From: Roseovarius sp. EL26
GTDB lineage: Bacteria; Pseudomonadota; Alphaproteobacteria; Rhodobacterales; Rhodobacteraceae
Assembly (NCBI RefSeq): GCF_900327775.1
Contig: NZ_OUMZ01000007.1
Span: 1,971,606-2,035,605 of the forward strand
Direction: 5' to 3'
DNA: 64,000 nucleotides
This document shows, piece by piece, positions 19,712 to 40,168 of the stretch (position 1 is the first letter of the stretch; the number at the start of each line of letters is the position of its first letter). Position numbers and translations under genes: made by a program. The notes under the pieces are model-generated. The model was not told where the DNA came from. It searched no databases and saw nothing but the letters and a program-made list of their open reading frames with translations.

Positions 19712-19862
19712 CGCTCCCTCACGCTCAGGTGAATATGTTGTGAAGGTAAGCGATCCACAGGTTGTATGCTAGGGGGAAGATTTTATTAGGATTATCAACA
19801 GAGTTGGCATAGGCGCGCGGAGTGATCTAGATTGGGTATGACATGATATTTTGGGATCCCTC

Positions 19863-23897: not shown

Positions 23898-25271
23898 TCA
23901 CTGCCCCCAAACTGCACATTTACGGTCTACCGTTTTGCGTGACACGCCAAGGCGACGCGCCGCTTCGGCGCGATTGCCATTACAAGCATCCAGAACATTC
24001 AGGATATGGCGTTGTTCGACCAGTTCCAGGGTTTCAATCGCCTCAACCCCAGTAATTTTCCCATGCCCTGCAAATTCGGCAGGAAAGGCCCCTAGAATAA
24101 CCGAGCGCTCGATCAGGTTGCGCAGCTCTCGCACATTGCCCGGCCAATCATAACGGCTCAGCTTGAGCAGTGTCTCTTCGTTCAGCTCTAGCGCAGGCAT
24201 GCCAAGTGAGCGGGAAATCTGACTCATGAATGCGGCGGTTAGCTCAACAATATCTTCTGCCCGCTCATGTAGGTGCGGCATGGCGATATTGACAACATTG
24301 ATACGGTGATAAAGATCTGCACGAAAGCGCCCCTCTGCCACCGCAACCTCCAAATCGGCATTGGTGGCAAACAAAAAGCGCAGGTTCAGCGGAATATCAC
24401 GCTCGGCCCCTAAAGGGCGAATGCGCTGATCTTCCAGCACCCGCAGCAGCGCTGCCTGTACTTGTTCAGGCAGTTGCGCCACCTCATCCAGAAACAAGGT
24501 TCCACCGTCAGCATGCAAAAATAACCCGTCTTTGCGGTAATCTTGCCCCTGCACCACGCCAAACAGTTCATCGGCAATGTGATCGGCTGAAATGGCAGCG
24601 CAATTGACCGCAACAAAAGGTTTACCTGCCCGATCAGACAGCCCGTGCAGCGTTCGTGCGGCAATTTCCTTGCCGGTTCCACTGGCCCCCGTGAACAACA
24701 CAGAGGTGGGCATAGGCGCAAGCCGCGTCAGCATATCGCGAACAGTCTGGATCGCAGCCGAATTGCCCAAAAGCCGTCCGCGAGCGGCATTCCCGCCCTC
24801 AGACAGTTCATGTTTAAGCAGGTAGTTTTCGCGTCGCAAATGCTTACGGTCCAGTGCCCGCGCCACGGCATTCAGGATCTGATTGGCGCGGAAAGGTTTC
24901 AAAACAAAATCCGCCACCCCACTGCGCAGAGCCTGAATAGCAGTGTCTAGGTCAGCGTAAGCTGTGATCAAGATGGTATCGGCAAACAACCCAACGCGAC
25001 GTTGCTCTGACAACCATTCCAGCCCAGTTTTTTCCGGCATGATATTATCAAGAATGACCAGATCAAAATGCGCCTGATCCAAAATTTCCGCCGCCTCACG
25101 TGCGGACCGCGCTTGTTCCACCCGCTTGCAACGCGGCGTCAGGATTTTGGTCAGAAAGTTGCGCATTCCCGGTTCATCATCGATTACCAAAATCGACGCT
25201 GTTTCAAGGTTTTCACCGTAATCATCGCGGTTTTTTCCCGTCTGCTTTATCGCAGAAATTTGCTGCATCAT
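23898..25271 (-). CDS. NtrC-family response regulator lacking GAFTGA
   Basis: 457 residues: receiver domain (phospho-acceptor Asp75 in VILDNIMP, Lys125 in LKPF), AAA+ domain (Walker A GASGTGKE at 195-202, Walker B GTLFLDE at 257-263, GNVREL near 378), and a C-terminal Fis-type helix-turn-helix (AEAARRLGVSRKTVDR). The sigma-54-contacting GAFTGA loop is missing: the sequence goes from ELFGVVQG to RKDGLF with no such motif. Known proteins without it, such as Rhodobacter capsulatus NtrC, work with the housekeeping sigma factor. It is the last gene of the formate dehydrogenase run (ATGA overlap with the small gene before it), so it probably regulates it. Confidence 0.88.
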   Translation of the reverse strand: MMQQISAIKQTGKNRDDYGENLETASILVIDDEPGMRNFLTKILTPRCKRVEQARSAREAAEILDQAHFDLVILDNIMPEKTGLEWLSEQRRVGLFADTILITAYADLDTAIQALRSGVADFVLKPFRANQILNAVARALDRKHLRRENYLLKHELSEGGNAARGRLLGNSAAIQTVRDMLTRLAPMPTSVLFTGASGTGKEIAARTLHGLSDRAGKPFVAVNCAAISADHIADELFGVVQGQDYRKDGLFLHADGGTLFLDEVAQLPEQVQAALLRVLEDQRIRPLGAERDIPLNLRFLFATNADLEVAVAEGRFRADLYHRINVVNIAMPHLHERAEDIVELTAAFMSQISRSLGMPALELNEETLLKLSRYDWPGNVRELRNLIERSVILGAFPAEFAGHGKITGVEAIETLELVEQRHILNVLDACNGNRAEAARRLGVSRKTVDRKCAVWGQ

Positions 25272-25405
25272 TCTGTGACCTCATCCAGCCGAACGGCATC
25301 GCCAGTCATCTGTTCCGATGTGGATTGACCGGTAGCAGACAAAACACCGCTGGCGACAATAGCGATCAAGACGCTAATCGCAAAAGCAATGATCATGATT
25401 TTCAT
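25268..25405 (-). CDS. 45-residue membrane protein between WD40-cytochrome and regulator genes
   Basis: Frame MKIMIIAFAISVLIAIVASG ... followed by a short hydrophilic tail ending RLDEVTE. It has one N-terminal hydrophobic helix (possibly an uncleaved signal anchor). Its ATG overlaps the stop of the WD40-cytochrome gene (ATGA) and its stop overlaps the regulator ATG (ATGA). A GGAGGA ribosome site lies 6 nt upstream. This double coupling is strong evidence for a real gene. Function unknown; position suggests a link between the periplasmic electron carrier and the regulator. Confidence 0.75.
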   Translation of the reverse strand: MKIMIIAFAISVLIAIVASGVLSATGQSTSEQMTGDAVRLDEVTE

Positions 25406-26781
25406 TTCCGATCCTCCTGTGATCCAGCGTTCACCCCGATATCCTGTTCAATATCTGCCATGGTCGCCCCACGTAAAAAGTCAATCAGATCCTGCCGATC
25501 TTGGGTTTCTGTGATCCGCTGCATCGGCATTTTTGATCCCGGAATGTAGTGATCCGGCCCCTCATCGAATAAAGCATTGATCGTATCATCTGACCAAACG
25601 ATATCTGATCCCTGCAGCGTTTCCGAATAGTTATATCCAGAAACCGTTCCGGCGCGACGCCCCATAACATTATATAACGTTGGACCAGCTTTGCGTGAGG
25701 GCGGCGGCGTGAGGGCGTGACAGATCGAACATTTGCGCATGAACTGACGCTCGCCGTTCGACATCTTGGCCGGATCTTGCAGAAAACTACGTGTTGCACC
25801 ACCCGCAGGGTCAAACGTGTCTAACAATGCCACAGGCCACGCATAGACAATATCTTCGATCCCGCCCGCATAGATCTTCGCCCCATCTGGGGAAAACGCC
25901 AACGCCCATACCGGGCCACGGCGCATTGAACGGAAATCACGAATGATCTCCCACGCGCTAGTATCAATGATCATAATGTAACCCTGCCCATCTCCCACTG
26001 CGAGTTGATCGGTGCCCGCATGATAAGCCATCGACAGGATCGGCCGACGTTCCAGAGTGAAATCATGCAAGATTTCCCCACTTATCGGATCAATCACTCG
26101 GGTGACGCCATCAACCGCCCCATATGCAAGCCAGCCAGCCCGAGCGTTCACAATCATTTTGTTGATACCAAACCCGTTCTCCGTAATAATTCGCGAAGAC
26201 ACCCCTTCAAAGCTAACATCCCAAAATCTGATCGTTCCATCGGTTGAGGCGGAATACACATCCCCATCCGGCGTGAAGGCCACCGCATTTATCCCCGCAT
26301 CGTGACCGGTCAGACTAACAGAATTTGCATATGCAGGATCGATTATTTCATTATTTCGTTGCAAATCCATCGCCCGGCGAACTTCTATCGTGCCATCCCA
26401 GCTAGCCGTTGCTAACAGGCCGCCTTCGCTCCAAAATGCAACATCCGTGATCTTGCCTTTATGCTTCACAATCTGAAGAGGCCCAAACTCCCCCGGGGCC
26501 CACAACAACGCCCGAAAATCATCACCGCCTGACATTAATAGGTTTTCATCTATGAACCGTACCGTAGTGACTGCCGCCTCATGACCTTCCAGCCACTCAG
26601 GTACGCGCCCCAACCACAAGCCGATGGAGTTGTCGAAACTTGCGGTCGCCACCCGCCCAGTTTCTGGATGGATCGCAATATCCATCACCGGACCGCCGTG
26701 ACCTTTGAGCGTAGTAAATTCTTGGGCTGAGGCCGTCGTGGCCATCAACCAGAACAGAAAGGCGCCCGCGATCTTGTGCAT
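25402..26781 (-). CDS. WD40 beta-propeller fused to cytochrome c
   Basis: 459 residues: signal peptide ending TTASA, then a WD40 propeller (repeat cores such as GHGGPVMDIAIHP, WDGTIEV, GHDAGINAVAFTPDGDVYSASTDGTIRFWD, PVWALAFSPDGAKIYAGG) to about residue 320, then a cytochrome c domain with heme motif CSICH at 351-355 and a probable axial Met418 in IPGSKMPM. It should be a periplasmic c-type cytochrome. It lies directly after the FDH gamma gene with no gap, so it likely takes electrons from the FDH membrane subunit or quinol pathway; this is inference from position. Confidence 0.88.
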   Translation of the reverse strand: MHKIAGAFLFWLMATTASAQEFTTLKGHGGPVMDIAIHPETGRVATASFDNSIGLWLGRVPEWLEGHEAAVTTVRFIDENLLMSGGDDFRALLWAPGEFGPLQIVKHKGKITDVAFWSEGGLLATASWDGTIEVRRAMDLQRNNEIIDPAYANSVSLTGHDAGINAVAFTPDGDVYSASTDGTIRFWDVSFEGVSSRIITENGFGINKMIVNARAGWLAYGAVDGVTRVIDPISGEILHDFTLERRPILSMAYHAGTDQLAVGDGQGYIMIIDTSAWEIIRDFRSMRRGPVWALAFSPDGAKIYAGGIEDIVYAWPVALLDTFDPAGGATRSFLQDPAKMSNGERQFMRKCSICHALTPPPSRKAGPTLYNVMGRRAGTVSGYNYSETLQGSDIVWSDDTINALFDEGPDHYIPGSKMPMQRITETQDRQDLIDFLRGATMADIEQDIGVNAGSQEDRK

Positions 26782-27984
26782 CTATTCGGCAGGGGTCGCT
26801 TTGCCCTCAGGCGTTTCGTCATGACCTGCTTCCAACTCTTCCAACCAGAGGCTGTGGTGCTCTCGCGCCCATTGTTCCTCAACCTCGCCAGAGGTCATCG
26901 CATCCATTGCGCCCTCCATCCCGACAGAGCCAATATAGATATGCGCAAAGATGATCGCCATAAGCACAAAAGCCATGATTGCATGCCACATCTGAGCGTA
27001 TTGCATTTCCTCTTGTGGGGCGAGCGTGTTGGGCAATTCGCCAAATCCCAAAATTTGGGGCAAGCCAGTTTGATTCAGAATACCAAAGGTTTTGGCAAAC
27101 ATCGGCAGCTCGTAAGGAAACAACAACGATAGCCCCGATGCCGATATCGAGACACCAAAGAGAATGACCGACCAGAAGATCAGCTTTTGTCCAGCGTTGA
27201 ACTTATTGGCTGGGGGATGCACACCTTTACTCAGCAGTCCGCCCCCCTGTGCCAACCATTTCAGATCTGCGCGATTAGGCAGGTTATGTATCACCCACAT
27301 CACAAAAACCATGGCCAGCCCCAGCATGAAGGCCCAAGAGATATTGTTGTGGATCCACTTGGAGCCAACAGCGATGGAGGAAAAGGACTCGTGCCCAAAA
27401 GCAGGGATCAAAACCTTGCGCCCGAACAGCGAGATTAACCCCGTAAATCCAAGTATAATGAATGATCCCGCCATCAACCAATGACCAAAACGCTCGATCG
27501 CGGCAAAGCGGGTCACGGTCCGTCCGGTTTTTTCACCCTCAATACGGATACGTCCCCTGATCAGATAGAACAACACCAACGCCAACAAAGTACCACCCAG
27601 AAGGTAGGCCCCATTGGAAGCCAAAGGGCCCTCTCGAAAGCGCAGCCACTTCATACCGCCATCCTGCATCAGAACGCGCGCTTCATCGCCACCTGCAGAA
27701 ACCGTCACTTCCGCTGTGCCATAACGCAATGCGCGCCAGACCTCTGGATCAGATGCTCCGCCCAGTGTACCTAACTGGCTGGCCACCGATGCCGCGCTGT
27801 CGGGATCTCCTGTGGCGCCGCTTCGAAAACTGTCATCAATCTTTTCCCCACGCTGGCGGGCCATGATGTCTTCGAGTGTCTGCGCCCCACCCGTGGCCAC
27901 ACGTTCAGACGTATCCGCCTCTTGTGCCATGATAGGCAGGGCCAGAAACAGAGATAGAAAAAAGGCGAGCAGAATGCGTACCAT
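26782..27984 (-). CDS. Formate dehydrogenase gamma subunit (cytochrome b556)
   Basis: About 400 residues: N-terminal signal segment and ~100-residue periplasmic part, then four to five transmembrane helices of the FdnI/FdoI diheme cytochrome b type, with heme-ligand histidines in IERFGHWLMAGSF and MWVIHNLPNRAD and HAIMAFVLMAIIFAHIYIG. It anchors FDH and passes electrons from the Fe-S subunit to quinone or a partner. The long periplasmic N-terminal extension is larger than in E. coli FdnI. Start at 27984 is favoured by a CAGGA site 9 nt upstream; in-frame ATGs exist at 27993 and 28008. Confidence 0.92.
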   Translation of the reverse strand: MVRILLAFFLSLFLALPIMAQEADTSERVATGGAQTLEDIMARQRGEKIDDSFRSGATGDPDSAASVASQLGTLGGASDPEVWRALRYGTAEVTVSAGGDEARVLMQDGGMKWLRFREGPLASNGAYLLGGTLLALVLFYLIRGRIRIEGEKTGRTVTRFAAIERFGHWLMAGSFIILGFTGLISLFGRKVLIPAFGHESFSSIAVGSKWIHNNISWAFMLGLAMVFVMWVIHNLPNRADLKWLAQGGGLLSKGVHPPANKFNAGQKLIFWSVILFGVSISASGLSLLFPYELPMFAKTFGILNQTGLPQILGFGELPNTLAPQEEMQYAQMWHAIMAFVLMAIIFAHIYIGSVGMEGAMDAMTSGEVEEQWAREHHSLWLEELEAGHDETPEGKATPAE

Positions 27985-28063
27985 GACTGTCATTCCTGAA
28001 ATTACCATCGGATCGGATGGGCCGCCTAACGCTGCCCACCCGCTTGATCAATAACCACTAGGG

Positions 28064-28657
28064 TTAGCCGCCCTTCTGGTCATAGGCTGTTCCCCAGCCC
28101 CAAGCACCCGAGCCAAAGCCACGCGCCACAACACGTTCGCGGTAGATGGCTGACACGACATCACCGTCACCGGCCAGAAGTGCCTTGGTTGAACACATCT
28201 CGGCGCAGATCGGCAGCTTGCCTTCAGCAATCCGGTTGCGGCCGTATTTCTGAAACTCGGTGGTGGAGTTATTGTCTTCTGGACCACCGGCGCAGAACGT
28301 ACATTTGTCCATCTTGCCACGTGATCCAAAACTGCCGGCCTGCGGGTATTGCGGTGCCCCAAAGGGACACGCGTAAAAGCAATAACCGCAGCCGATGCAG
28401 AGGTCTTTGGAGTGAAGAACCACCCCGTCCTCGTTCTGATAAAAGCAGTCAACAGGGCAGACCGCCATACAAGGTGCATCGGAACAGTGCATGCAAGCCA
28501 CTGAGATCGATCGTTCGCCGGGTTTGCCATCCTCAATGGTGACAACACGGCGGCGGTTAATACCCCAGGGGACCTCATGTTCGTTCTTACAGGCCGTGAC
28601 ACAGGCGTTGCATTCAATGCAGCGTTCGGCGTCGCAGAGAAACTTTGCTCTTGCCAT
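28064..28657 (-). CDS. Formate dehydrogenase beta subunit (four [4Fe-4S])
   Basis: 197 residues in the DMSO-reductase-type ferredoxin fold. Four cysteine clusters are visible: CIECNACVTAC, CMHCSDAPCMAVCP, CIGCGYCFYACP and CTFC...CAEMC. The protein wires electrons from the catalytic subunit to the cytochrome b subunit. No signal peptide is present, so it must be exported with the Tat-signal-bearing alpha subunit. It starts 12 nt after the alpha subunit stop. Confidence 0.96.
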   Translation of the reverse strand: MARAKFLCDAERCIECNACVTACKNEHEVPWGINRRRVVTIEDGKPGERSISVACMHCSDAPCMAVCPVDCFYQNEDGVVLHSKDLCIGCGYCFYACPFGAPQYPQAGSFGSRGKMDKCTFCAGGPEDNNSTTEFQKYGRNRIAEGKLPICAEMCSTKALLAGDGDVVSAIYRERVVARGFGSGAWGWGTAYDQKGG

Positions 28658-28669
28658 ATCTCTTTCTCC

Positions 28670-31564
28670 TTATGCTGCGCTGATTTTGCAAAGAGACACT
28701 TTGCTCTCTTGCATCTGCGTGACTGAATCGTAGCCGTAGGTCATCGCGGTGTTCGCCGCTTCACCCAAGACATAGGGGTCAGCACCGTCGGGATATTTAT
28801 CCCTTAGATCCACACCCTCCATGTGACCGGCAAAGTGGAACGGCATGAAGGCCACGCCTTCACCCACACGGTTGGTAACCATGGCCATGACTTTGACCTT
28901 GGCACCTTCCGCTCCTTCGACCCAAACCTGTTCACCGTCGCGCACACCGTAGTTGTTGGCATCGCGTGGATTGATCTCAACGAACATGTCCTGCTGCAAC
29001 TCTGCCAACCAGGGGTTTGAACGGGATTCCTCGCCACCGCCCTCGTATTCGACCAACCGGCCGGAGGTTAGGATGATCGGATAGTCTTGGGAGAAATCGT
29101 TCTTCTGGATAGACGCATAGAGCGTTGGCAGGCGGTAAGCCTGACGGTCCTCGTAGGTCGGGTAATCCGCCACCAGATCGCGCCGCGGTGTATAAAGCGG
29201 TTCGCGGTGGATCGGCACCGGATCAGGGAATGTCCAAACAACAGCGCGCGCCTTGGCATTACCAAATGGCGCACACTCGTGCTGAATCGCAACGCGCTGG
29301 ATCCCACCTGAAAGGTCAGTTTTCCAGTTGGTTTTGGCTCCGGCCACAGCGTCAATCGCGGCACGTTCCTCATCCGTCAGATCGCCATCCCAACCCAGAT
29401 CCATCAGCATTTGCATGGTGAACTCGGGATAACCGTCTTGGATTTCTGACCCTTCGGAGAAGACACCCTCGGCGAGCAGATTATCACCATCGCGCTCTAC
29501 CCCGAAACGGGCGCGGAACGTCAGACCACCTTTGGAAACCGGCTTGGACATGTCATAAAGGTTTGGCGTACCGGGGTGACCCATTTCCGCCGTACCCCAA
29601 CATGGCCATGGCATCCCGTAGTAATCGCCATCCGCCGGGCCACCAATGGCCTGAAGCGTAGTGCGATCAAAGGTATGCTGATTCGCCATATGCAGTTTGA
29701 TACGCTCGGGCGATTGCCCAGTGTAACCCACTGTCCACATACCTGCGTTGATCTCACGCGTGATACTTTCGACATTCGGGGTTTCCGCGTCGTCCATTTC
29801 GATATTGCGGAAGAGCCGGTCGGCCCAGCCAAACTTGTTGGCAAACTTGGCCATGATTACCTCATCCGGGAGGCTTTCAAACAGCGGCTCGACAACCCGG
29901 TCTCGCCATTGCAGTGAACGGTTCGATGCGGTGACAGAGCCACGCGTTTCAAACTGTGTACAGGCTGGCAGCAGATAAACGCCATCAGTACGGTCATGCA
30001 TCACGGCAGAGGCGGTTGGATAGGGGTCAACCACGACCAGCATATCCAGCTTTTCCATCGCCGTTTTCATTTCCTTACCACGGGTCTGCGAGTTGGGCGC
30101 ATGACCCCACAAAACCATGGCACGCACCTTGTTGGGCTGATCTATGTTTTCAACATCTTCCAGCACACCGTCGATCCAACGGCTGACAGGGATACCTTTG
30201 AGGTTTTGCAAAGACGCGTCGTTGCCGTCTTTGTCCTTGATGCTGTCGAACTGACCCGCCAGCCACTCAGGATCTTCACCCCAAACGCGGCCCCAATGTC
30301 CCCAAGCCCCTGCCGACAGGCCATAGTAACCCGGCAGTGTATGGCTCAGAACACCAAGGTCTGTGGCACCTTGAACGTTGTCGTGGCCGCGGAAGATGTT
30401 TGTGCCGCCACCCGACGTGCCCATGTTGCCCAGTGCAAGCTGCAGCACACAGTAAGCACGTGTGTTGTTGTTGCCATTGGTGTGCTGTGTGCCTCCCATA
30501 CACCAGATCACGGTGCCGGGACGATTATTCGCCATCGTTCGGGCAACACGCTCAAGCTGCGATCCCGGCGTGCCAGTAACACGCTCGACCTCTTCTGGAT
30601 TCCACTGAGCAACCTCTTCGCGGATCTGATCCATGCCCCAGACACGGGTGCGGATAAATTCTTTGTCCTCCCAGCCGTTTTCAAAGATATGCCACAAGAT
30701 CCCCCAAACCAGCGCCACGTCGGTGCCGGGGCGGAAGCGCACATATTCATCAGCATGGGCCGCCGTGCGAGTAAAGCGTGGGTCACACACAATGAGCGGC
30801 GCATTATTTTGTTCTTTCGCACGCAGCAAATGCAGCAACGAGACGGGGTGTGCCTCAGCTGGATTGCCACCAATGACAAAGATCGCACGGCTTTTGTGAA
30901 TATCATTGTAAGAGTTGGTCATGGCGCCGTAGCCCCATGTGTTGGCTACGCCCGCAACAGTGGTCGAGTGGCAAATCCGTGCTTGGTGATCGACATTATT
31001 TGTACCCCAATAAGCGGCGAATTTGCGGAACAGATAGGCCTGTTCGTTATTGTGCTTGGCTGATCCCAGCCAATAGACGCTGTCGGGCCCGCTTTCATCG
31101 CGGATGTTCATCATGCCGTCGCCGATCTCGTTAATCGCCTGTTCCCAACTGATGCGTTTCCATTCCCCGCCTTCTTTCTTCATCGGGTATTTGAGTCGAC
31201 GTTCACCATGGGCATGTTCACGCACCGAAGCGCCCTTGGCACAGTGCGCACCCAGATTGAACGGACTGTCCCACCCCGGCTCCTGCCCGACCCAGACACC
31301 ATTGCTGACTTCGGCAACAACAGTACAGCCGACCGAGCAGTGCGTGCAGACAGATTTGACAGTTTCAACTGCCTGTGTCGCAGCGGTTTGTGCATTTGCA
31401 CGGGTCACAGACCCGCCAGTTGCGCCAATTGCGGCAAGGCCACCAATGGCCAGGCCTGAGCCGCGCAAAAACGCACGGCGGTCAACGGATGTTTCCGCGA
31501 CCTCAGACAGGATACTTGTCCGCCGGGGGCCTCTCGCAACCCCATTGGTCTTTTTCCTAAGCAT
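28670..31564 (-). CDS. Formate dehydrogenase alpha subunit (Mo/W-bisMGD)
   Basis: 964-residue catalytic subunit. A Tat signal (RRAFLRGSGLAIGG) is followed by the [4Fe-4S] motif C73-x2-C76-x3-C80-x27-C108 and the four-domain bis-pterin fold. The metal ligand is Cys198 in ARICHSTT, not selenocysteine as in E. coli FdnG, so no SECIS is needed. The conserved His follows it. The enzyme oxidises formate to CO2 in the periplasm. Molybdenum or tungsten cannot be told from sequence, although tungstate import genes lie nearby. It is preceded by a small Tat-signal gene and followed by beta and gamma genes. Confidence 0.96.
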   Translation of the reverse strand: MLRKKTNGVARGPRRTSILSEVAETSVDRRAFLRGSGLAIGGLAAIGATGGSVTRANAQTAATQAVETVKSVCTHCSVGCTVVAEVSNGVWVGQEPGWDSPFNLGAHCAKGASVREHAHGERRLKYPMKKEGGEWKRISWEQAINEIGDGMMNIRDESGPDSVYWLGSAKHNNEQAYLFRKFAAYWGTNNVDHQARICHSTTVAGVANTWGYGAMTNSYNDIHKSRAIFVIGGNPAEAHPVSLLHLLRAKEQNNAPLIVCDPRFTRTAAHADEYVRFRPGTDVALVWGILWHIFENGWEDKEFIRTRVWGMDQIREEVAQWNPEEVERVTGTPGSQLERVARTMANNRPGTVIWCMGGTQHTNGNNNTRAYCVLQLALGNMGTSGGGTNIFRGHDNVQGATDLGVLSHTLPGYYGLSAGAWGHWGRVWGEDPEWLAGQFDSIKDKDGNDASLQNLKGIPVSRWIDGVLEDVENIDQPNKVRAMVLWGHAPNSQTRGKEMKTAMEKLDMLVVVDPYPTASAVMHDRTDGVYLLPACTQFETRGSVTASNRSLQWRDRVVEPLFESLPDEVIMAKFANKFGWADRLFRNIEMDDAETPNVESITREINAGMWTVGYTGQSPERIKLHMANQHTFDRTTLQAIGGPADGDYYGMPWPCWGTAEMGHPGTPNLYDMSKPVSKGGLTFRARFGVERDGDNLLAEGVFSEGSEIQDGYPEFTMQMLMDLGWDGDLTDEERAAIDAVAGAKTNWKTDLSGGIQRVAIQHECAPFGNAKARAVVWTFPDPVPIHREPLYTPRRDLVADYPTYEDRQAYRLPTLYASIQKNDFSQDYPIILTSGRLVEYEGGGEESRSNPWLAELQQDMFVEINPRDANNYGVRDGEQVWVEGAEGAKVKVMAMVTNRVGEGVAFMPFHFAGHMEGVDLRDKYPDGADPYVLGEAANTAMTYGYDSVTQMQESKVSLCKISAA

Positions 31565-31942: not shown

Positions 31943-32551
31943 TTACGTTGAACTCATCCTAAAGGCCTCAACTTCGATCTCCATAAACACTCGACCGACA
32001 GCGCCGACCGAAGCGTACAGAACCGAATTTTTAGCCGCCTCAAGATCTGTGAAAAAATGCCCGGCCCAAGGGCCAATGTGCTTGGCAAAGAATGTTTGCT
32101 GCTCTTTCAACGTCGCCGTCTGTCCAAACCGCCCGCTGATTAGCCCTGCCATCATCTCCATCAAAGAGGCGATATTGTCTTCGGGTTCATAGACGTTTGG
32201 CGCGCGCGTCATCCCTCGCGCGGCCATGTCACGCCGAAGTGCCGCGAGTGGTTTCTCATTCAAAAATCCGGTCATGTAATAGCTGGCGTAGGGCAGCAAC
32301 TCACCCCGGCCCAGACCGACAAAAAGCGCATTGAATTCACGCTCAACCGCTTGCGGTTTGCTAAGTTTTGCAACCCGTGCAAGCCCAGCCACAGCTATCC
32401 CTAGTACGCTATCATCGCCTGACAGCGCCGCACTCTGCGACAACAGGCTTTGCTCGGGCGGGCGAGCCAAAAGCAGGCCCAGAAAATCATAAAGATCAGC
32501 GCGCAGGCGGTCCTCGGTCGCAATTGATGGCGTATCAACGGTATCTGACAT
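31943..32551 (-). CDS. TorD/DmsD-type molybdoenzyme chaperone
   Basis: About 202 residues, all-helical TorD family: RLRADLYDFLGLLLARPPEQ at the N-terminus and YASYYMTGFLNEKPLAALRRDMAARGMTRAPNVYEPEDNIASLMEMM in the middle, which includes the family E-P-x-D hinge. It should bind the Tat signal of FDH alpha (and maybe of the small Tat protein) and hold it until the cofactor is loaded. The start at 32551 has an AAGAGG site 5 nt upstream; 32572 is also in frame and overlaps the DUF3306 stop. Confidence 0.88.
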   Translation of the reverse strand: MSDTVDTPSIATEDRLRADLYDFLGLLLARPPEQSLLSQSAALSGDDSVLGIAVAGLARVAKLSKPQAVEREFNALFVGLGRGELLPYASYYMTGFLNEKPLAALRRDMAARGMTRAPNVYEPEDNIASLMEMMAGLISGRFGQTATLKEQQTFFAKHIGPWAGHFFTDLEAAKNSVLYASVGAVGRVFMEIEVEAFRMSST

Positions 32552-32568
32552 CAAAACCTCTTGTGTGC

Positions 32569-33210
32569 TCATGCCGTGCCCCCGGGTTGCCCTTCAAAGG
32601 CGAACTGCATGCGGCGGTGCGAAACTGCAGGTTCCGGCGGCTTGTCAGCCTCGGCAACAGCGAATTCTTTTGACGGCTGTGAAGCAGCGCCGGATTCTGA
32701 TACCAGTCCTTTTTCCTGAGTGGCATTCTCCACCTCAATAACCGGTACAGTGGCACTAGATTCCTCATCCATGGCAAGGCTATCTGTAGACGTATCTTCC
32801 TCTGAACGTTCTCGTGCCATTTCTTCGACGTGTGACATCATGCCCTTGCCGACCTGATAGGCAGTCTGCAAATTCTCGATCACCGTCGCACTGTCGGTGA
32901 AGTCTTCGCCGTAGTCGATTAGTCCATCAAGGTTTGCCAACGTTGGATCCGTCAACCATAGGCGGCGCAACGCCCGGCGGCGCAGGCGATCAGGAACAGC
33001 TTTCGCCATGAACGCCTGAAAATCATCACCAGCACCCAAGGCATCCGGATCTGGCAATCCCAGTTCTTCAAGTAATTCCTCATCTGTTTTTTCGGCCTGC
33101 TGTTGCGCAATGAACTGTTCCGTGCGGATGTCTTCAGCGCGAGCGTCAGATTCGACCTCGCTTTGGACTGCTGCCCTGCGGCGTGACCAGAAATCTTGCG
33201 GCTTTGTCAT
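32569..33210 (-). CDS. DUF3306 protein
   Basis: 213 residues. The N-terminal half holds the DUF3306 signature FWSRRRAAVQ, FMAKAVPDRLRRRALRRLWLTDP and LIDYGEDFTD; the C-terminal half is acidic and low-complexity. No catalytic motif is visible. DUF3306 and DUF3305 genes occur in pairs near formate dehydrogenase genes, so an FDH maturation role is likely. It overlaps the DUF3305 gene upstream (ATGA-type). Confidence 0.85.
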   Translation of the reverse strand: MTKPQDFWSRRRAAVQSEVESDARAEDIRTEQFIAQQQAEKTDEELLEELGLPDPDALGAGDDFQAFMAKAVPDRLRRRALRRLWLTDPTLANLDGLIDYGEDFTDSATVIENLQTAYQVGKGMMSHVEEMARERSEEDTSTDSLAMDEESSATVPVIEVENATQEKGLVSESGAASQPSKEFAVAEADKPPEPAVSHRRMQFAFEGQPGGTA

Positions 33211-33776
33211 TGCAAGCGCTCCTTTCTGGCAGCACCCGGCGCGCGGTATACATCGGCTACCTGCGGAATACGCGCATCACCAATGCCATCCTCGACCTGA
33301 TCCACATTCAAACGATCCCTGCGGCGCTTTACGAATACTTCATCTTCATGATGCGTCTCAGCAAAATCCCGGACCCAAGCAATCAAGCCAGCAGGCATCG
33401 GGATTTTCTCGACGATATCCTCGCCATTATCCGCATAGTCCTGCGCCTCATATGGGGACGCCGTTACCAACACTGCGGACAGCGAAATCGGGCCATTCCC
33501 CTCCGCACGTAAAACCGCATAGACCGAGGGCACCTTGGCCGACAAGCCATGCAGATACGCCTCCGTTTCGGCGCCATGCAATTCAAGCATCAAGGTCGCT
33601 GCATGATATTCGGTAATCTCGCCTTCTTGCCGCAGAACGCGCCAGTCGGAAGGTTCGGCACCAGGCAAAACAGCCACAGCGCTCCAGATCCATTTTTCCC
33701 AACGCGTCACCCCGGGGGTGCGTCGCACCACTATCCCCAGCGGCATTGCATCATACATATCGGGATTTCGGATCAT
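33207..33776 (-). CDS. DUF3305 protein
   Basis: About 189 residues with the DUF3305 core MPLGIVVRRTPGVTRWEKWIW near the N-terminus and EGEITEYHAATLMLELHGAETEAYLHGLSAKVPSVYAVLR. No catalytic motif seen. The frame can open further upstream at a TTG (33851); ATG 33776 is chosen because GGAAAG precedes it. It is probably the first gene of the FDH run, and its start faces the polyferredoxin gene across ~370 bp. Confidence 0.8.
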   Translation of the reverse strand: MIRNPDMYDAMPLGIVVRRTPGVTRWEKWIWSAVAVLPGAEPSDWRVLRQEGEITEYHAATLMLELHGAETEAYLHGLSAKVPSVYAVLRAEGNGPISLSAVLVTASPYEAQDYADNGEDIVEKIPMPAGLIAWVRDFAETHHEDEVFVKRRRDRLNVDQVEDGIGDARIPQVADVYRAPGAARKERLQ

Positions 33777-34142: not shown

Positions 34143-36101
34143 ATGCCTAAGCAACTGATTCTATGCAACTGTTCAGAAACCCACATGATAGACAGTGCAG
34201 CACTTGAAGCCGCGACAGGTCTACCTTGCTCAAAGGTGTATTCTGGTCTGTGCATGGGGGAAACCAACAGTGCGGCACAGGCCATTGCCTCGGGTGAGGC
34301 AATAATTTGTTGCCAACAAGAAGCCCGCGTTTTTGCCGAAATTGCAGAAGAGATCGGGCAAGCTCCCCCCCCCTTGGTGGACTTGCGAGATCGGGCTGGA
34401 TGGTCGGACGACCCCCGTTCAAAACTGCCCAAAATGGCCGCTCTTTTAGCTGAGGCCACATTGGACACTCCCGCCGAAAAAACAGTGGATGTTATATCAG
34501 AGGGGCTGTGCTTCATTATAGGTCCGGCTAATGTGGCCCTGCCAGCAGCCGAAAAACTGGCAGCGTTCCTAAGTGTAACAACCCTGTTGACCGATAGAGT
34601 TGAGCCCCCTGACACCAGAAATTTCGATGTGATCCTAGGACAGCTAAATCGTGCAAGTGGTACGTTAGGCCAATTCAAGGTACGGATCGATGCTCTGCAA
34701 CAGGTACAACCCGGTGGGCGTGGCCCCCTACAGTGGTCTGCTCCGCGTGATGGTGGACAAAGCGAGTGCGATGTCATTCTTGACCTAAGCGGCGAGACCC
34801 CTTTGTTTCCAGCCCCTGAAAAGCGCGAAGGATATCTGCGTGCCGATCCCGGTAGCATACCCGCAGTAGCTGATGCGATATTGGAAGCATCGCAACTGAT
34901 CGGAACCTTTGAAAAGCCGCTATATGTAGCCTTAGAGCCACTCATTTGCGCCCATTCGCGTGCTGAACAGACCGGCTGCTCCAACTGCTTGGCTATCTGT
35001 CCAACCGGCGCAATTTCACCGGATGGTGATCATGTTAGCATTGACCCTATGACATGCGCTGGATGTGGGTCCTGTGCAGCACTCTGCCCATCAGGCGCGA
35101 TCACCTATGACGCCCCACCACCCGACGCTTTATTCAGACGCATCCATACTTTATCATCAGCCTACCGTAAAGCCGGGGGAGACGCTCCACGTCTGTTGGT
35201 CTGCGATCAAAGCTTTGGCCGGGACATGATAAAACTTGCCGCACGGCACGGCCGGGGTCTGCCTGCAGATGTGATTCCCCTAGAGGTCGCAGCCCTAGCA
35301 GGCTTTGGCCACGCAGAAATTCTGGCAGCGTTGGCTTCAGGCTTTGTCGATGTGATATTGTTATTATCCCCGGGAACCGAACGTGATGCCCTGAACCGGG
35401 AAGTGCCCCTTGCCCGCGCCATGGCAGGAGAGAACCAGATCAATGTCTTCGACGTCAATGACCCCGACCTGCTGTGCGAATTACTGTATAATGCCCCCGC
35501 GCCAACAATCTGTTGCCCGGATCCTGTACTGCCAATGGGAAACCGCCGTCAGGTGGCCCGTCTCAGTGCACAAGCCATACACCCGGGCGCAGATTCTTTG
35601 CCCTTACCAAATGATGCCCCATATGGTGCCGTGCTGGTTGACACCGATGCCTGCACCCTATGCTTGAGCTGTGTTTCATTATGTCCCTCTGGCGCGCTGG
35701 TTGATAACCCTGATCTGCCGCAGTTGCGCTTTCAGGAAGATGCCTGTTTGCAATGTGGACTATGCTCTAACATCTGCCCAGAGGATGCCATTTCCTATGA
35801 ACCTCGCCTGAACCTGACGGATGAAGCGCTATCGCAGGTGGTCTTGAACGAGGAGGAGCCCTTTGCTTGTGTCGAGTGTGGGGTATTGTTTGGCGTCAAA
35901 TCAACGATTGAAAAAATCACCGATAAACTGGCCGGTAACCACGCGATGTTTACTAATCCCGAAGCTCTGCGCATGATTCAAATGTGCGATGACTGCCGTG
36001 TTCGCGCTCAGTTCAAAACCACAGACAATCCCTTGGCGGCCGGTGAACGTCCACGCGTGCGCATGACCGAAGACTATTTCAGCAAGCGCCGCGATCATTG
36101 A
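34143..36101 (+). CDS. FDH-associated polyferredoxin (4Fe-4S protein)
   Basis: 652 residues. Cysteine-rich parts are CSNCLAICPTGAI and CAGCGSCAALCPSGAI at about 280-320, and CTLCLSCVSLCPSGAL and CLQCGLCSNICPEDAI at about 505-560, which makes four [4Fe-4S] clusters, with further cysteines near the N-terminus (CCQQ) and C-terminus (CVECG, CDDCR). The remaining sequence is an FDH-accessory type domain. It probably passes electrons or supports FDH maturation. It is divergent from the DUF3305 gene and convergent with the hybrid cytochrome gene, which it overlaps by 7 nt. Confidence 0.85.
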   Translation: MPKQLILCNCSETHMIDSAALEAATGLPCSKVYSGLCMGETNSAAQAIASGEAIICCQQEARVFAEIAEEIGQAPPPLVDLRDRAGWSDDPRSKLPKMAALLAEATLDTPAEKTVDVISEGLCFIIGPANVALPAAEKLAAFLSVTTLLTDRVEPPDTRNFDVILGQLNRASGTLGQFKVRIDALQQVQPGGRGPLQWSAPRDGGQSECDVILDLSGETPLFPAPEKREGYLRADPGSIPAVADAILEASQLIGTFEKPLYVALEPLICAHSRAEQTGCSNCLAICPTGAISPDGDHVSIDPMTCAGCGSCAALCPSGAITYDAPPPDALFRRIHTLSSAYRKAGGDAPRLLVCDQSFGRDMIKLAARHGRGLPADVIPLEVAALAGFGHAEILAALASGFVDVILLLSPGTERDALNREVPLARAMAGENQINVFDVNDPDLLCELLYNAPAPTICCPDPVLPMGNRRQVARLSAQAIHPGADSLPLPNDAPYGAVLVDTDACTLCLSCVSLCPSGALVDNPDLPQLRFQEDACLQCGLCSNICPEDAISYEPRLNLTDEALSQVVLNEEEPFACVECGVLFGVKSTIEKITDKLAGNHAMFTNPEALRMIQMCDDCRVRAQFKTTDNPLAAGERPRVRMTEDYFSKRRDH

Positions 36102-36859
36102 TGTTGCAAAGGTGCGCCCAAGTCAGCCGGTGGAATCACCGACACATAGGCGAGTATCGCCTCGAATTCTGCAATCGTCAGCTCGACCGGGATAATCGGT
36201 GGAGGGCGGTCGATCGGGAATGGATCGGTCACAGCGGCAATCTGAGTAAACGCTGGGTGCGGGTTCAGAAGGTAGAAGCTTTGAAACCGCAGGTCCCAGT
36301 CTTCCATCGTGCGCAACACAGCAAAAGACGGTGTCGAACCGATTGCACTGAATTTTGTAGCCTCATTCACTGTGTGACAACGCCCGCAATGCAAAACCGA
36401 CAGCTTAGCCCCTTCACTGACATCTCCGTCAAAATGGACTTCAGCCACCTCAATTTGTGCCGGACCCGGCAGGTGAAAAAGCACCGTACCATCGATTTTG
36501 AACGCGGTGATCGTACGTTGGCCAACCTCAGACATCAGCCAGTCAGAAAACCGAGCCGCCCCGGCATGATCCGGTGTCTCGATCTGCAACAACCAAGGAC
36601 CGGATGAGCCAATGAAGATTGTACGTCCACCCCCTTGTTGCAGCAGTCGGACCTCTGCCGCCGCTCCCTCTTTGACCACCTCTATCCGGACGCCTGTCTT
36701 GAGCGAAAACCGGGGTAACAAATGCTTGAGAAAGCCAGTTTCAATCATGATTTCAGGCACTGCCAGACGAAACCCTTCAGCCGCAGACAGCTGTGTCGTC
36801 ATCAGCACAATCAGGGCCCAATGATAGACAAAAACCATTCTCAAACGAAACAGACGCAT
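36095..36859 (-). CDS. Short TupA-like domain fused to cytochrome c
   Basis: 254 residues: signal peptide to about 28, then a ~100-residue part that resembles the two ends of the TupA tungstate-binding fold (RLAV ... GFLKHLLPRFSLKTGVRIEVV near 31-62, and ARFSDWLMSEVGQRTITAFKIDG near 102-124) with the middle missing, then a cytochrome c domain with CGRCH at 158-162. The TTS anion-binding residues of TupA are absent, so tungstate binding is doubtful. It should be a periplasmic heme protein. Start 36859 is chosen because longer frames cross the divergent DUF6494 gene; 36838 is an alternative. Confidence 0.7.
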   Translation of the reverse strand: MRLFRLRMVFVYHWALIVLMTTQLSAAEGFRLAVPEIMIETGFLKHLLPRFSLKTGVRIEVVKEGAAAEVRLLQQGGGRTIFIGSSGPWLLQIETPDHAGAARFSDWLMSEVGQRTITAFKIDGTVLFHLPGPAQIEVAEVHFDGDVSEGAKLSVLHCGRCHTVNEATKFSAIGSTPSFAVLRTMEDWDLRFQSFYLLNPHPAFTQIAAVTDPFPIDRPPPIIPVELTIAEFEAILAYVSVIPPADLGAPLQHQ

Positions 36860-36919: not shown

Positions 36920-37114
36920 ATGAGCGATGAGTTCAACATGTCGATGCGCAAATTCCTCAAGCAGGTGGGGGTCACCTCGCAGCAGGCAATTGAGGATGGG
37001 CTGCGCACATCCGGTACCCACGCCGGGCAAGAATTTGAGGCCAAAATGGTGCTGACCATTGACGGCCTGGATGTGGAACATGTGGTAACCGGCACGATCA
37101 AAGGCGAGGCATAG
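36920..37114 (+). CDS. DUF6494 protein
   Basis: 64 residues starting MSDEFNMSMRKFLKQVGV, with EFEAKMVLTIDGLDVEHVV later; a small alpha/beta protein of the DUF6494 family. A GGGAG ribosome site lies 9 nt upstream. The following mrp gene starts 1 nt after its stop, so it opens the DUF6494-mrp-ligase-like-DUF6505 operon. Molecular role unknown; co-occurrence with FDH accessory genes suggests involvement in FDH assembly. Confidence 0.8.
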   Translation: MSDEFNMSMRKFLKQVGVTSQQAIEDGLRTSGTHAGQEFEAKMVLTIDGLDVEHVVTGTIKGEA

Positions 37115-37115
37115 A

Positions 37116-38180
37116 GTGAGCATTACGCGAGAGGCGGTTCTGACCGCATTAAAGCAGGTAAAAGATCCGGTATCGGGCAATGACATTGTCGCCGCGGGCA
37201 TCAGCCGCGCCCTAAACGTTGATGGGAATACCGTACGCTTTGTGCTGGAAGTCGATCCCGCCAAAGCCGAGACTTACGCCCCAGTACGGGACGCCGCTGA
37301 GACCGCTGTTAAAGCGTTAGGAGTGTCTGAGGTCTCTGCCGTGCTTACCGCGCATGCGGCCAAGACCCCGCCGCCCGACTTAAAACCACAACAACATGCT
37401 GCCCCACAAGGGCCCGAGCGTGTCCCCGGTGTGAAACACATCATCGCCATTGCCTCTGGAAAAGGCGGCGTTGGAAAATCAACGGTATCTTCCAATCTGG
37501 CTTGCGCGCTGGCCGCCGAAGGACGGCGCGTAGGTCTTTTGGATGCCGATGTTTACGGCCCCAGCCAGCCGCGGATGCTTGGTGTGTCCGGTCGCCCCGC
37601 CAGCCCGGATGGGAAAACTATTCTGCCCCTTCGCAATCACGGTGTCACTATGATGTCAATCGGATTGATGACAAACGAGGGACAGGCGGTTGTCTGGCGT
37701 GGCCCCATGCTGATGGGGGCCTTGCAACAGATGTTGATGCAGGTGCAATGGGGTGCTTTAGATTGCCTGTTGGTTGACCTGCCCCCCGGCACCGGGGATG
37801 TGCAAATGACACTGGCACAAAAGACGGTGGTCGATGGTGCCATCGTTGTCTCCACACCGCAGGATGTCGCGCTCTTGGATGCGCGCAAAGGCATCGACAT
37901 GTTCAACCAGCTGAACGTGCCTGTGTTGGGCATGATCGAAAACATGTCGACACATATTTGCTCCCAATGCGGGCACGAGGAACATGTCTTTGGTCACGGC
38001 GGTGTCAAAGCCGAAGCCGAAAAGCTGGGCGTACCCTTGATGGCAGAAGTGCCCCTGCATCTTGATATCCGGTTGGCGGCAGATGGTGGAGCGCCAATTG
38101 TGGTTTCCAAACCAGAAAGTGCGCAAGCCCAAGCGTTTCGCGATATCGCCAAGCAGTTGGTGGCACAAGGAATCGCATGA
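37116..38180 (+). CDS. Mrp/ApbC-type Fe-S cluster carrier ATPase
   Basis: 354-residue P-loop NTPase starting with GTG. It has an N-terminal MIP18-like domain (ALKQVKDPVSGNDIVAAGI), the deviant Walker A GKGGVGKSTVSSNLA near residue 115, the Walker B/A' DADVYGPSQPRML, and the CSQCGH motif near 285 whose paired cysteines bridge a cluster between subunits. These proteins carry [4Fe-4S] clusters to apo-enzymes. It lies in the FDH-accessory operon and overlaps the next start by 4 nt, so it may serve the many clusters of FDH and the polyferredoxin. Confidence 0.92.
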   Translation: MSITREAVLTALKQVKDPVSGNDIVAAGISRALNVDGNTVRFVLEVDPAKAETYAPVRDAAETAVKALGVSEVSAVLTAHAAKTPPPDLKPQQHAAPQGPERVPGVKHIIAIASGKGGVGKSTVSSNLACALAAEGRRVGLLDADVYGPSQPRMLGVSGRPASPDGKTILPLRNHGVTMMSIGLMTNEGQAVVWRGPMLMGALQQMLMQVQWGALDCLLVDLPPGTGDVQMTLAQKTVVDGAIVVSTPQDVALLDARKGIDMFNQLNVPVLGMIENMSTHICSQCGHEEHVFGHGGVKAEAEKLGVPLMAEVPLHLDIRLAADGGAPIVVSKPESAQAQAFRDIAKQLVAQGIA

Positions 38181-38884
38181 ACACCGCACGCTTCCCCCCC
38201 CTCATGTCAGGGCAACTTGTCGAAGCCGGGATAGAGCCCTTTGAGAAAGCCTGCACAATGGCTGCACAGGGCTGTGATCCGGGTTTGGTCATCTATCATG
38301 TGGCGGCCAACCGGTTGGCCGCAGCACTGGTCATGGCCCCCGAGGTTCCTTTAGAACAGGCGATGGCAATGCTGCCTGCTTGCGGCGTGGGGTTTCAGAA
38401 CGCTTTGGGGGCATTGGCCCCACCTGAGGTCGCCGTGCATCTGGAATGGAGCGGCGGGCTGCGCATTAACGGTGCCACTTGTGGGCGGTTGCGCGCGGCG
38501 GCAGGCGATACTGACCCTGCGTTAGAACCTGACTGGCTTGTCATCGGGCTGGAGCTGCCATTGATGCAAATGGGTGAAAGCCCCGGCGACACCCCGGATC
38601 AGACCGCGCTATATAACGAAGGCTGCGCCGATATCGATGCCACCACTCTGCTAGAAAGCTGGGCCCGCCATACATTGAATTGGATCACCCGATGGGAAGA
38701 CGATGGCAATCGCGCGCTGCACGCTGAATGGTGCGGACTGGCACAGGGTATTGATCAGGAAACCTCACAAAACGGCCTGTCTGGCACATTTATTGGCGTG
38801 GATGAAAACTTCGGCATGCTACTGCGCGAAGATGAAACCACTCACCTGATCCCCCTCAGCAAAATCTTGGAGCACAGCAAATGA
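38177..38884 (+). CDS. Biotin/lipoate ligase-like protein with DUF4444 tail, catalytic Lys missing
   Basis: 235 residues with the BPL/LplA-type fold: AANRLAAALVMAPEVPLEQAM ... ALGALAPPEVAVHLEWSGGLRINGATCGRL ... WLVIGLELPL, followed by a C-terminal DUF4444 barrel (GTFIGVDENFGMLLRED). Where biotin and lipoate ligases have KWPND, this protein has EWSGG (Glu90), and the GRGRxG motif is absent. It is therefore probably not a ligase and may bind a small molecule or a partner. It overlaps mrp by 4 nt and DUF6505 by 4 nt. Confidence 0.75.
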   Translation: MNTARFPPLMSGQLVEAGIEPFEKACTMAAQGCDPGLVIYHVAANRLAAALVMAPEVPLEQAMAMLPACGVGFQNALGALAPPEVAVHLEWSGGLRINGATCGRLRAAAGDTDPALEPDWLVIGLELPLMQMGESPGDTPDQTALYNEGCADIDATTLLESWARHTLNWITRWEDDGNRALHAEWCGLAQGIDQETSQNGLSGTFIGVDENFGMLLREDETTHLIPLSKILEHSK

Positions 38885-39360
38885 AACTGGCACGCGCCAT
38901 CCATTTCGACGAAAGCGACACCCGTGTTTATGCCAACCCCGCACGCACTGGCGAATGGTGTGTGTCCGGCGGGTTCGAGTTTTCCAACTGGGGCGAGGGT
39001 GATTTGACCGGCAAGCCACGCCAAGCCTTTTCCAATGGCTGGCTGGGGTTGGAAACTTTTGGGCGCGTCACCTTTGTGGCGATCACCCAGATTGAGCCAG
39101 TTGAACAGGATGTTTTGGTCGGCACGCTTGCACAGCATTTCGTTGATCTCTACGGCGCACCAGATCTGGCAACGGCCCTGCCCGTGGCACAATCAGAACT
39201 GGATCAAATGGCCGACCTTTGCGAAGATCACCGCCCAAACACGCTCCTGACTGTTGCCCGTGAGCTAACCGAAGCTGGTGTCAGAGAAAGCTTTCGCATT
39301 ATTGAACCGCAAGATGCCGGATTAGATCAGTTTGCTATCCATGGGTCATTGGAAGAGTAG
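38881..39360 (+). CDS. DUF6505 protein
   Basis: 159 residues: MKLARAIHFDESDTRVY at the start, and a mixed alpha/beta body (TFVAITQIEPVEQDVLVGTLAQHFV). DUF6505 proteins have no known activity. It is the last gene of the DUF6494-mrp-ligase-like operon (ATGA overlap), next to the FDH genes, so an accessory role is inferred. It is convergent with tupA, 13 nt apart. Confidence 0.78.
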   Translation: MKLARAIHFDESDTRVYANPARTGEWCVSGGFEFSNWGEGDLTGKPRQAFSNGWLGLETFGRVTFVAITQIEPVEQDVLVGTLAQHFVDLYGAPDLATALPVAQSELDQMADLCEDHRPNTLLTVARELTEAGVRESFRIIEPQDAGLDQFAIHGSLEE

Positions 39361-39373
39361 AAGAAAGACCTCT

Positions 39374-40168
39374 TCACTCTGCATTGAACGTAAACAACTG
39401 CTCCCCTTCGAGGCGATACCCATCGATCAGCTCCTTCGCCCGACCTGACGTCAGCCAATCCTCGAGTTGCAGAGCCAGTTCAGCGTTCACATGCCCATGT
39501 TTCTCTGCGCTCACGGGCAGGTAGGCATATTGATTGAACAACACGGGATCACCTGCAAACAACAGCTCCAGCTCCCCCTTATTGCCAAAGTTCAGCCAAC
39601 TGGCGCGATCTGACAGAATGTACGCATTCAACCCCGATGCCGTGTTGAGCGCCGCGCCCATGCCTGCGCCCACGGCCTTGTACCATGTGTTCTCTGGGGC
39701 AACATCTGCGGCCTGCCAGAGGCTAAGCTCTTTTTTGTGGGTGCCGCTATCATCGCCGCGGCTCACGAAACCGGCTTGAAGCGTTGCAATTTGCTGTAGG
39801 GCTTCGGTAGCTGTCTGCGCGCTACCCACCCGTGCCGGGTCACCCGCCGGGCCAATGATCACAAAGTCATTATACATGATCTCGGTCCGATGCGGGGCAT
39901 TGCCATCTTTCACGAATTGTTCCTCTGCAGCCTTGGCATGCACCAATATCGCATCAACGTCCCCTGCCGCACCCAGCCGCAGGGCTTGCCCGGTGCCAAC
40001 CACTAGAAGCTGGACCTCGATGCCCGTGTCCTTGGCAATCTCCGGCAATAGAACCTCGGCCAAACCCGAGTTGTGAAACGAGGTGGTGACTGCCAGTCTC
40101 ATCTCTTCGGCCCAAACGCCCGTTCCCAGAACAAGAGAGAAAGCCGTACCAACTATCCATTTCAACAT
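39374..40168 (-). CDS. tupA: Tungstate-binding protein TupA
   Basis: 264 residues: signal peptide ending GVWAEE, then the TupA fold with the anion-binding TTSFHNSGL near residue 28, VGTGQALRLGAAGDVD near 57 and the family motif SRGDDSGTHKKEL near 138. TupA binds tungstate very selectively in the periplasm and passes it to TupB. Its gene follows tupC by 14 nt. Close to an FDH that could use W or Mo, it suggests tungsten is imported for that enzyme. Confidence 0.9.
   Translation of the reverse strand: MLKWIVGTAFSLVLGTGVWAEEMRLAVTTSFHNSGLAEVLLPEIAKDTGIEVQLLVVGTGQALRLGAAGDVDAILVHAKAAEEQFVKDGNAPHRTEIMYNDFVIIGPAGDPARVGSAQTATEALQQIATLQAGFVSRGDDSGTHKKELSLWQAADVAPENTWYKAVGAGMGAALNTASGLNAYILSDRASWLNFGNKGELELLFAGDPVLFNQYAYLPVSAEKHGHVNAELALQLEDWLTSGRAKELIDGYRLEGEQLFTFNAE

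Follow-up and report, generated by a model that had tools for sequence, protein, structure and literature searches.

A TupA-lobe-like domain fused to a cytochrome c domain beside formate dehydrogenase genes in Roseovarius sp. EL26

Architecture of the fusion gene

The 64,000-nucleotide stretch analysed here (the window; Roseovarius sp. EL26, contig NZ_OUMZ01000007.1, positions 1,971,606 to 2,035,605) carries, near genes of a formate dehydrogenase (FDH), a gene whose product joins an N-terminal domain resembling one lobe of the periplasmic binding protein TupA to a C-terminal cytochrome c domain with a CGRCH motif. An earlier note on this DNA had claimed the same open reading frame (ORF), with the same limits, and had described its product as a hybrid that lacks the middle of TupA and the TTS anion site and has gained CGRCH. 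The gene and its parts are as follows.

36095..36859, minus strand: whole fusion gene, comprising signal, TupA lobe A, linker and cytochrome c domain (254 amino acids; ORF list and homologues)
36782..36859, minus strand: signal-like sequence, residues 1-26 (by eye, from the LSAAE junction; helix at residues 2-21 in the model)
36461..36775, minus strand: TupA lobe-A-like domain, residues 29-133
36425..36460, minus strand: variable linker, residues 134-145 (alignment A1)
36098..36424, minus strand: monoheme cytochrome c domain, residues 146-254 (weak Pfam match, CxxCH, weak class I cytochrome fold match)
36374..36388, minus strand: CGRCH heme attachment motif, residues 158-162 (Cys, Cys and His invariant in A1 and A2)
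36257..36259, minus strand: His201 in PHPAFT, candidate second heme ligand (invariant column in A1 and A2)

A1 and A2 are unfiltered alignments of 41 family rows and of 77 rows, respectively, and the conservation of the heme motif and of His201 is claimed on these two: CxxCH is present in 41/41 and 77/77 rows and the His201 column is invariant in both. A further set of 75 rows (the window protein plus 74 of 80 named loci, see below) was filtered for C..CH and P[HY]P.F, which makes its CxxCH and PHP counts partly circular; the six loci dropped by this filter retain CxxCH as well as a His at the His201 position, with PHA or PHG in place of PHP. A conserved distal Met column was sought in the 75 rows and none was found.

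The retained part of TupA

The NCBIfam TupA model (NF041772) matches the fusion ORF in two stretches with an E value of 5e-5, the other of the two NCBIfam models listed reaching 0.13, and the best stretch pairs ORF residues 95-129 with positions 225-259 of the 266 of the model. The score of 22.8 bits does not reach the equivalog cut-off of 400, nor does that of the full-length TupA of the window (176.9 bits). At E<=0.01 the model is matched by 24 of the 41 family members. Pfam gave weak matches only, to Cytochrom_C (0.012, below the cut-off) and to SBP_bac_11 (0.13). The profile of the 41-row family, searched against PDB sequences, found TupA-type proteins on top (3muq, 4.5e-6; 3lr1, 1.5e-4; 5my5 and 3kn3, 1e-3), followed by weak matches including cytochromes c, and on 385 genomes of the class it matched many TupA-sized ORFs at the N- and C-terminal parts of the lobe. 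In a profile-profile comparison with hhalign (pairwise E values), 43 fusion lobes aligned over 104 columns with 46 TupA rows trimmed to lobe A (E 1.7e-20), while reversed TupA gave 0.34 as a control and untrimmed TupA just 38 N-terminal columns (E 1.8e-9).

The earlier note had called for a structure prediction. In the model the lobe fold is confident and residues 28-132 match lobe A of TupA; in this prediction the retained piece of TupA is one complete structural lobe. Lobe B and the central hinge strand were sought in the fusion and are absent, 132 residues of the neighbouring TupA being unmatched in the trimming used:

39374..40168, minus strand: complete tupA, 2.5 kb from the fusion gene (NCBIfam TupA E 4.9e-52, below the cut-off)
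39539..39934, minus strand: part of this tupA without a counterpart in the fusion (132 amino acids, essentially lobe B; trimmed alignment, with lobe limits from PMC5517513)

The fusion protein thus has in common with TupA of the TupABC transporter (PDB 5my5, 3lr1, 3muq; NF041772) the sequence of lobe A, the order of its elements and the predicted fold, and differs from it in lacking lobe B, the hinge cleft and the tungstate-site residues and in carrying a cytochrome. The similarity to TupA and the loss of its middle, both asserted by the earlier note, were borne out by the NCBIfam match, the family profile, hhalign and the predicted fold; the distance of "3 kb" that it gave to tupA was approximately right. 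We rejected the explanation that the likeness is due to chance or is common to binding-protein lobes in general, since TupA leads by sequence and by fold, and we regard it as extremely improbable.

Loss of the oxyanion site

Binding proteins normally act by two lobes closing on a ligand. Eight residues of TupA (Thr9-11, Ser12, His59, Arg118, Thr124 and Asp170) are named for tungstate binding in PMC5517513. By alignment equivalence none of the eight (0/8) is kept in the window protein, the three of lobe B being deleted and the five of lobe A replaced, and the TTS of TupA aligns to PEI, in agreement with the loss of the anion site that had been noticed before. In the 75-row set no hydroxyl residue occurs at either of the first two Thr positions, and the third has Thr in a single row; at the Ser12 position Ser occurs in six rows and Thr in two among the residues listed; and no row has His at the position of His59, where Gly (66), Asp (4), Arg (2), Ser (2) and Ala (1) stand instead. 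With lobe B lost, the lobe could no longer clamp tungstate. Metal binding by the lobe was rejected on the site residues: its kinship with TupA would speak for retained binding of tungstate or molybdate, singly or as a dimer, but with 0/8 site residues in the window protein and lobe B gone this is very unlikely.

Gene neighbourhood

The fusion gene has FDH3-type and tup genes in its neighbourhood.

28670..31564, minus strand: fdhA, FDH alpha subunit, Tat-type leader (by eye)
28064..28657, minus strand: fdhB, FDH3 beta subunit (NF038355, 344 bits, cut-off of 240 passed)
26782..28008, minus strand: fdhC, cytochrome b gamma subunit (TIGR01583, above the cut-off)
25402..26781, minus strand: second FDH-linked cytochrome, WD40 repeats and a C-terminal cytochrome c (PF00400 and PF00034, above the cut-off)
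31943..33776, minus strand: TorD-like chaperone, DUF3306, DUF3305
34143..36101, plus strand: 652-amino acid 4Fe-4S protein, convergent with the fusion gene
36920..39360, plus strand: DUF6494, Mrp/ApbC, BPL/LplA-like, DUF6505, divergent from the fusion gene (the name DUF6494 comes from plasmid records)
40183..41639, minus strand: ABC ATPase (tupC by position) and tupB-like permease (TupB NF041773 E 1.6e-47, below the cut-off)

The 3' end of the fusion gene shares seven bases with the end of the 4Fe-4S gene, and 60 bases separate the fusion gene from the divergent DUF6494 gene. The WD40-cytochrome c is likewise an FDH-linked cytochrome c fusion, with another partner domain; its cytochrome scores above the Pfam threshold, unlike that of the TupA-lobe fusion, and a Met motif, SKMPMQ, can be read in it by eye. 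WD40 is a domain type often used in protein contacts.

Distribution and linkage to FDH

A protein search with the fusion found 1538 relatives, the best 120 of which are mostly named "hypothetical protein", some cytochrome c; the closest named relative among the matches listed is that of Roseovarius albus (69%). A match is present in 19 of 24 genomes of the genus (its own included, one broken copy among them), and 423 of 499 candidate stretches from GTDB genomes encode a relative. From the latter 80 loci were retained (Roseovarius, Phaeobacter, Shimia, Roseibium, Stappia and others), and together with six short loci from a class-wide profile search 86 loci were read, several of which end at contig ends. 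Of these loci 85 contain Mrp, 84 contain the gene of the 4Fe-4S protein, 75 contain FdhA and 21 contain tupA. What had been presented as a lone hybrid is a widespread conserved gene family.

A profile search of 292 genomes of the order, with a profile that favours lobe-bearing forms, found the cytochrome in 92 and the lobe in 90 of these (including G603, with a stop codon), the two lobe-less ones being G511 and G626. Of the same 292 genomes, 147 have an FdhA match at E<=1e-150 and 194 a TupA match at E<=1e-30. FdhA occurs in 91 of the 92 cytochrome genomes, the exception being G603, and the two genes lie at most 10 kb apart in 86 of the 92. The earlier note had proposed a search for the same fusion near FDH genes; its statement that a heme motif is joined to a TupA-derived domain beside FDH genes is supported. 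Two broken copies go with FDH loss: in G015 an internal deletion took the heme motif and the fdhA beside it is broken, and in G603 the stop-bearing copy lies near a contig end and FdhA has no match.

TupA is present in all 92 cytochrome genomes, yet also in 146 of the 147 FdhA genomes; its co-occurrence was given up as a sign of a link to Tup, since TupA accompanies FDH anyway. This bears on the possibility that the fusion is a redox-linked competitor or regulator of TupBC, lobe A sitting on TupB instead of TupA and import being tied to the redox state of FDH. In favour are the kinship of the lobe with a protein that docks on a transporter and the presence of TupA in every case, but the latter adds nothing given the 146/147, the fusion tracks FDH and not tup (tupA in 21/86 loci), and a single lobe would offer only half a docking surface; we think such a role quite unlikely. 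A wider version, in which the lobe is a docking adaptor linking the heme to the W/Mo FDH or to TupB so that metal supply would be physically tied to the formate redox state, is unlikely as well.

The fusion gene is also found in five plasmid records. Three were read and hold the same block, with fdhA visible in two and the flanking block running to the record end in one; their copies are annotated "hypothetical protein" (two) and "c-type cytochrome" (one). These three loci (L175, L176 and L177) place the FDH3 block or part of it, fusion included, on plasmids of Tateyamaria, Sulfitobacter and Sagittula.

Constraint on the lobe

Across 17 close pairs the lobe has a median ratio of nonsynonymous to synonymous substitution rates (dN/dS) of 0.20 and the cytochrome one of 0.14. 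With looser limits, under which near-saturated pairs are included and saturation is likely, the median omega over 144 pairs is 0.45 and 0.31, respectively; for the linker it is 0.55 over 119 pairs, near-saturated ones again included. Arg50, Lys54 and Trp107 of the lobe are invariant in 41/41 rows of A1 and in all of the 75-row set (75/75). The lobe is under purifying selection, though freer than the heme domain, and because of the three invariant residues and the dN/dS of 0.20 we consider its surface and fold to be kept. "Relict", the word chosen in the earlier note, is a poor one for a domain with a confident predicted fold and under purifying selection. The same data speak on whether the lobe is a functionless by-product of gene fusion. 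Its faster change relative to the cytochrome and the existence of lobe-less relatives would fit this, but the median dN/dS in the close pairs, the confident fold and the presence of the lobe in 90 of the 92 cytochrome genomes (by a profile that favours lobe-bearing forms) argue against it, and a by-product is improbable.

Lobe-less relatives and origin of the fusion

Lobe-less cytochromes exist in other Alphaproteobacteria. L130 has one at the identical position, between the 4Fe-4S gene and DUF6494, with tupBCA beyond fdhC; those of L131, L132, L133 and L135 are near FDH-block and tup genes, and those of L136 (a match with a stop codon) and L138 are near fdhA. These cytochromes (L130-L133, L135, L136, L138) have a related domain, with CxxCH and PHP, and differ from the fusion in having no TupA lobe; L105 carries the lobe. 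Because lobe-less forms stand at the same position or near block genes, the comparison suggests a cytochrome core to which the lobe was added. With the L130 cytochrome as query, a protein search gave 355 matches, and the best 120, again mostly named "hypothetical protein" with some cytochrome c names, are all at least 222 amino acids long except P0123, P0124 and P0139; close lobe-less relatives are rare among these best 120 of the 355 matches. In the case of P0139 the gene call may be truncated. The lobe-less cytochromes of G511 and G626 (L154, L155), from one genus and of the same family, lie 115-124 kb from fdhA.

A tree of the lobe (113 columns, midpoint root, bootstrap unsettled, without the order's second TupA lineage, which is about 47-53% identical) unites the 23 fusion rows in a single clade (100/99), none of the 46 TupA rows falling inside it, and places the tupA next to the fusion gene in a separate clade of 27 Rhodobacterales TupA rows (100/100). 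The placement of the fusions beside the Rhodobacterales TupA clade was not rejected (p-AU 0.444). Within the limits of this tree, a recent copy of the neighbouring tupA, from which the hybrid had been supposed to arise, is not supported, the clade of fusions being apart; an ancient origin near the Rhodobacterales clade is compatible with it. In the cytochrome tree, few branches of which are supported, a single origin of the lobe was not rejected (p-AU 0.47). The scenario that fits best is that an FDH-linked cytochrome gained a TupA lobe once, long ago, and that the lobe was later lost a few times.

Proposed function

We propose, with about an even chance of being right, that the product of the gene is exported to the periplasm as a monoheme cytochrome c and acts together with the FDH3-type formate dehydrogenase, its heme domain standing behind a TupA lobe that serves as a docking module. 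The heme domain would be the working part and the lobe the docking module, because anion binding is lost, the gene is linked to FDH and not to tup, and lobe-less cytochromes occur elsewhere. Heme would be loaded with His162 and His201 as ligands; lobe A would most likely be a rigid module that docks on a partner, most likely FDH3, and keeps the heme domain close to one of the FDH subunits or to the membrane complex of FDH; and the heme would pass or sense electrons from formate oxidation.

Several observations weigh against this proposal. The WD40-cytochrome c, directly after fdhC, is a more obvious electron acceptor. Fold comparison of the cytochrome part gave a weak class I match with poor models (predicted local distance difference test score 66 at best), and a model of the cytochrome alone stayed weak; the lobe, as said, changes faster than the cytochrome. 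The co-occurrence of FdhA and the cytochrome (Fisher p 6e-35) ignores kinship, as do the linkage counts. In three of the 92 cases a long distance on one contig separates the copy from fdhA (115-124 kb for two lobe-less copies, 334 kb for the third), two further copies are on a contig other than that of fdhA, and at three of the ten lobe-less loci fetched (L134, L137, L139) the stretch holds no other FDH-block gene. The fusion gene is missing from 56 of the 147 FdhA genomes; at 14 of 18 FdhA loci without it, which were hand-picked from the 56 and not random, other block genes were found and there was no room for the fusion, and G011 (L142), of the same genus, has an FDH3 block without the fusion between the 4Fe-4S gene and DUF6494. 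By these absences, FDH does not need the fusion gene. The fusion would be an accessory, since the main acceptor may be the WD40-cytochrome c and FDH occurs in many genomes that lack the fusion.

The same neighbourhood could be read differently, with the heme domain helping FDH to mature or shielding it: the domain would take part in assembly of the enzyme or in its protection from redox damage and would not be a respiratory carrier. The gene stands alone, apart from fdhABC, among maturation-type genes (TorD-like, DUF3305/3306, the 4Fe-4S protein, Mrp), another cytochrome follows fdhC, and an invariant His201 with no conserved Met ligand is unusual for a simple carrier. It is, however, dispensable in 56 of the 147 FDH genomes and absent from otherwise intact blocks; we consider such a role doubtful.

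Regarding precedent, of which the earlier note knew no obvious one, that statement is nearly right. We found no literature on a fusion of a TupA lobe and a cytochrome, in a search that reached few subscription journals. A partial precedent, for a different periplasmic dehydrogenase, is XoxGJ of Methylacidiphilum, described in PMC8498564 and PMC8170126 as an acceptor of electrons from XoxF in which a cytochrome and a periplasmic binding protein are fused. By description, not by sequence, both are one chain made of a c-type cytochrome and a binding-protein relative at a one-carbon dehydrogenase; in these sources XoxGJ serves the lanthanide methanol dehydrogenase XoxF, whereas the neighbour of the present fusion is FDH3 and its binding-protein part is a single N-terminal TupA lobe. 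One lobe, its ligand site gone, is kept as a component of a cytochrome across many Rhodobacterales and Stappiaceae, and the lobe-less versions at matching positions are natural controls. The recurrence of the hybrid in many relatives, nearly always together with FDH, suggests that one half of a transport protein was put to a new use.

Other features near the FDH operon

Look-alikes of the WD40-cytochrome (by eye) stand beside FDH genes at L143, L144, L157 and L174, including FDH variants without the TupA-lobe cytochrome. Near the FDH operon of the window are a sensor kinase (19851-21821, plus strand) and a sigma-54-type response regulator (23898-25271, minus strand), both judged from sequence alone, and a sigma-54 regulator also stands at the corresponding place in Sagittula stellata.
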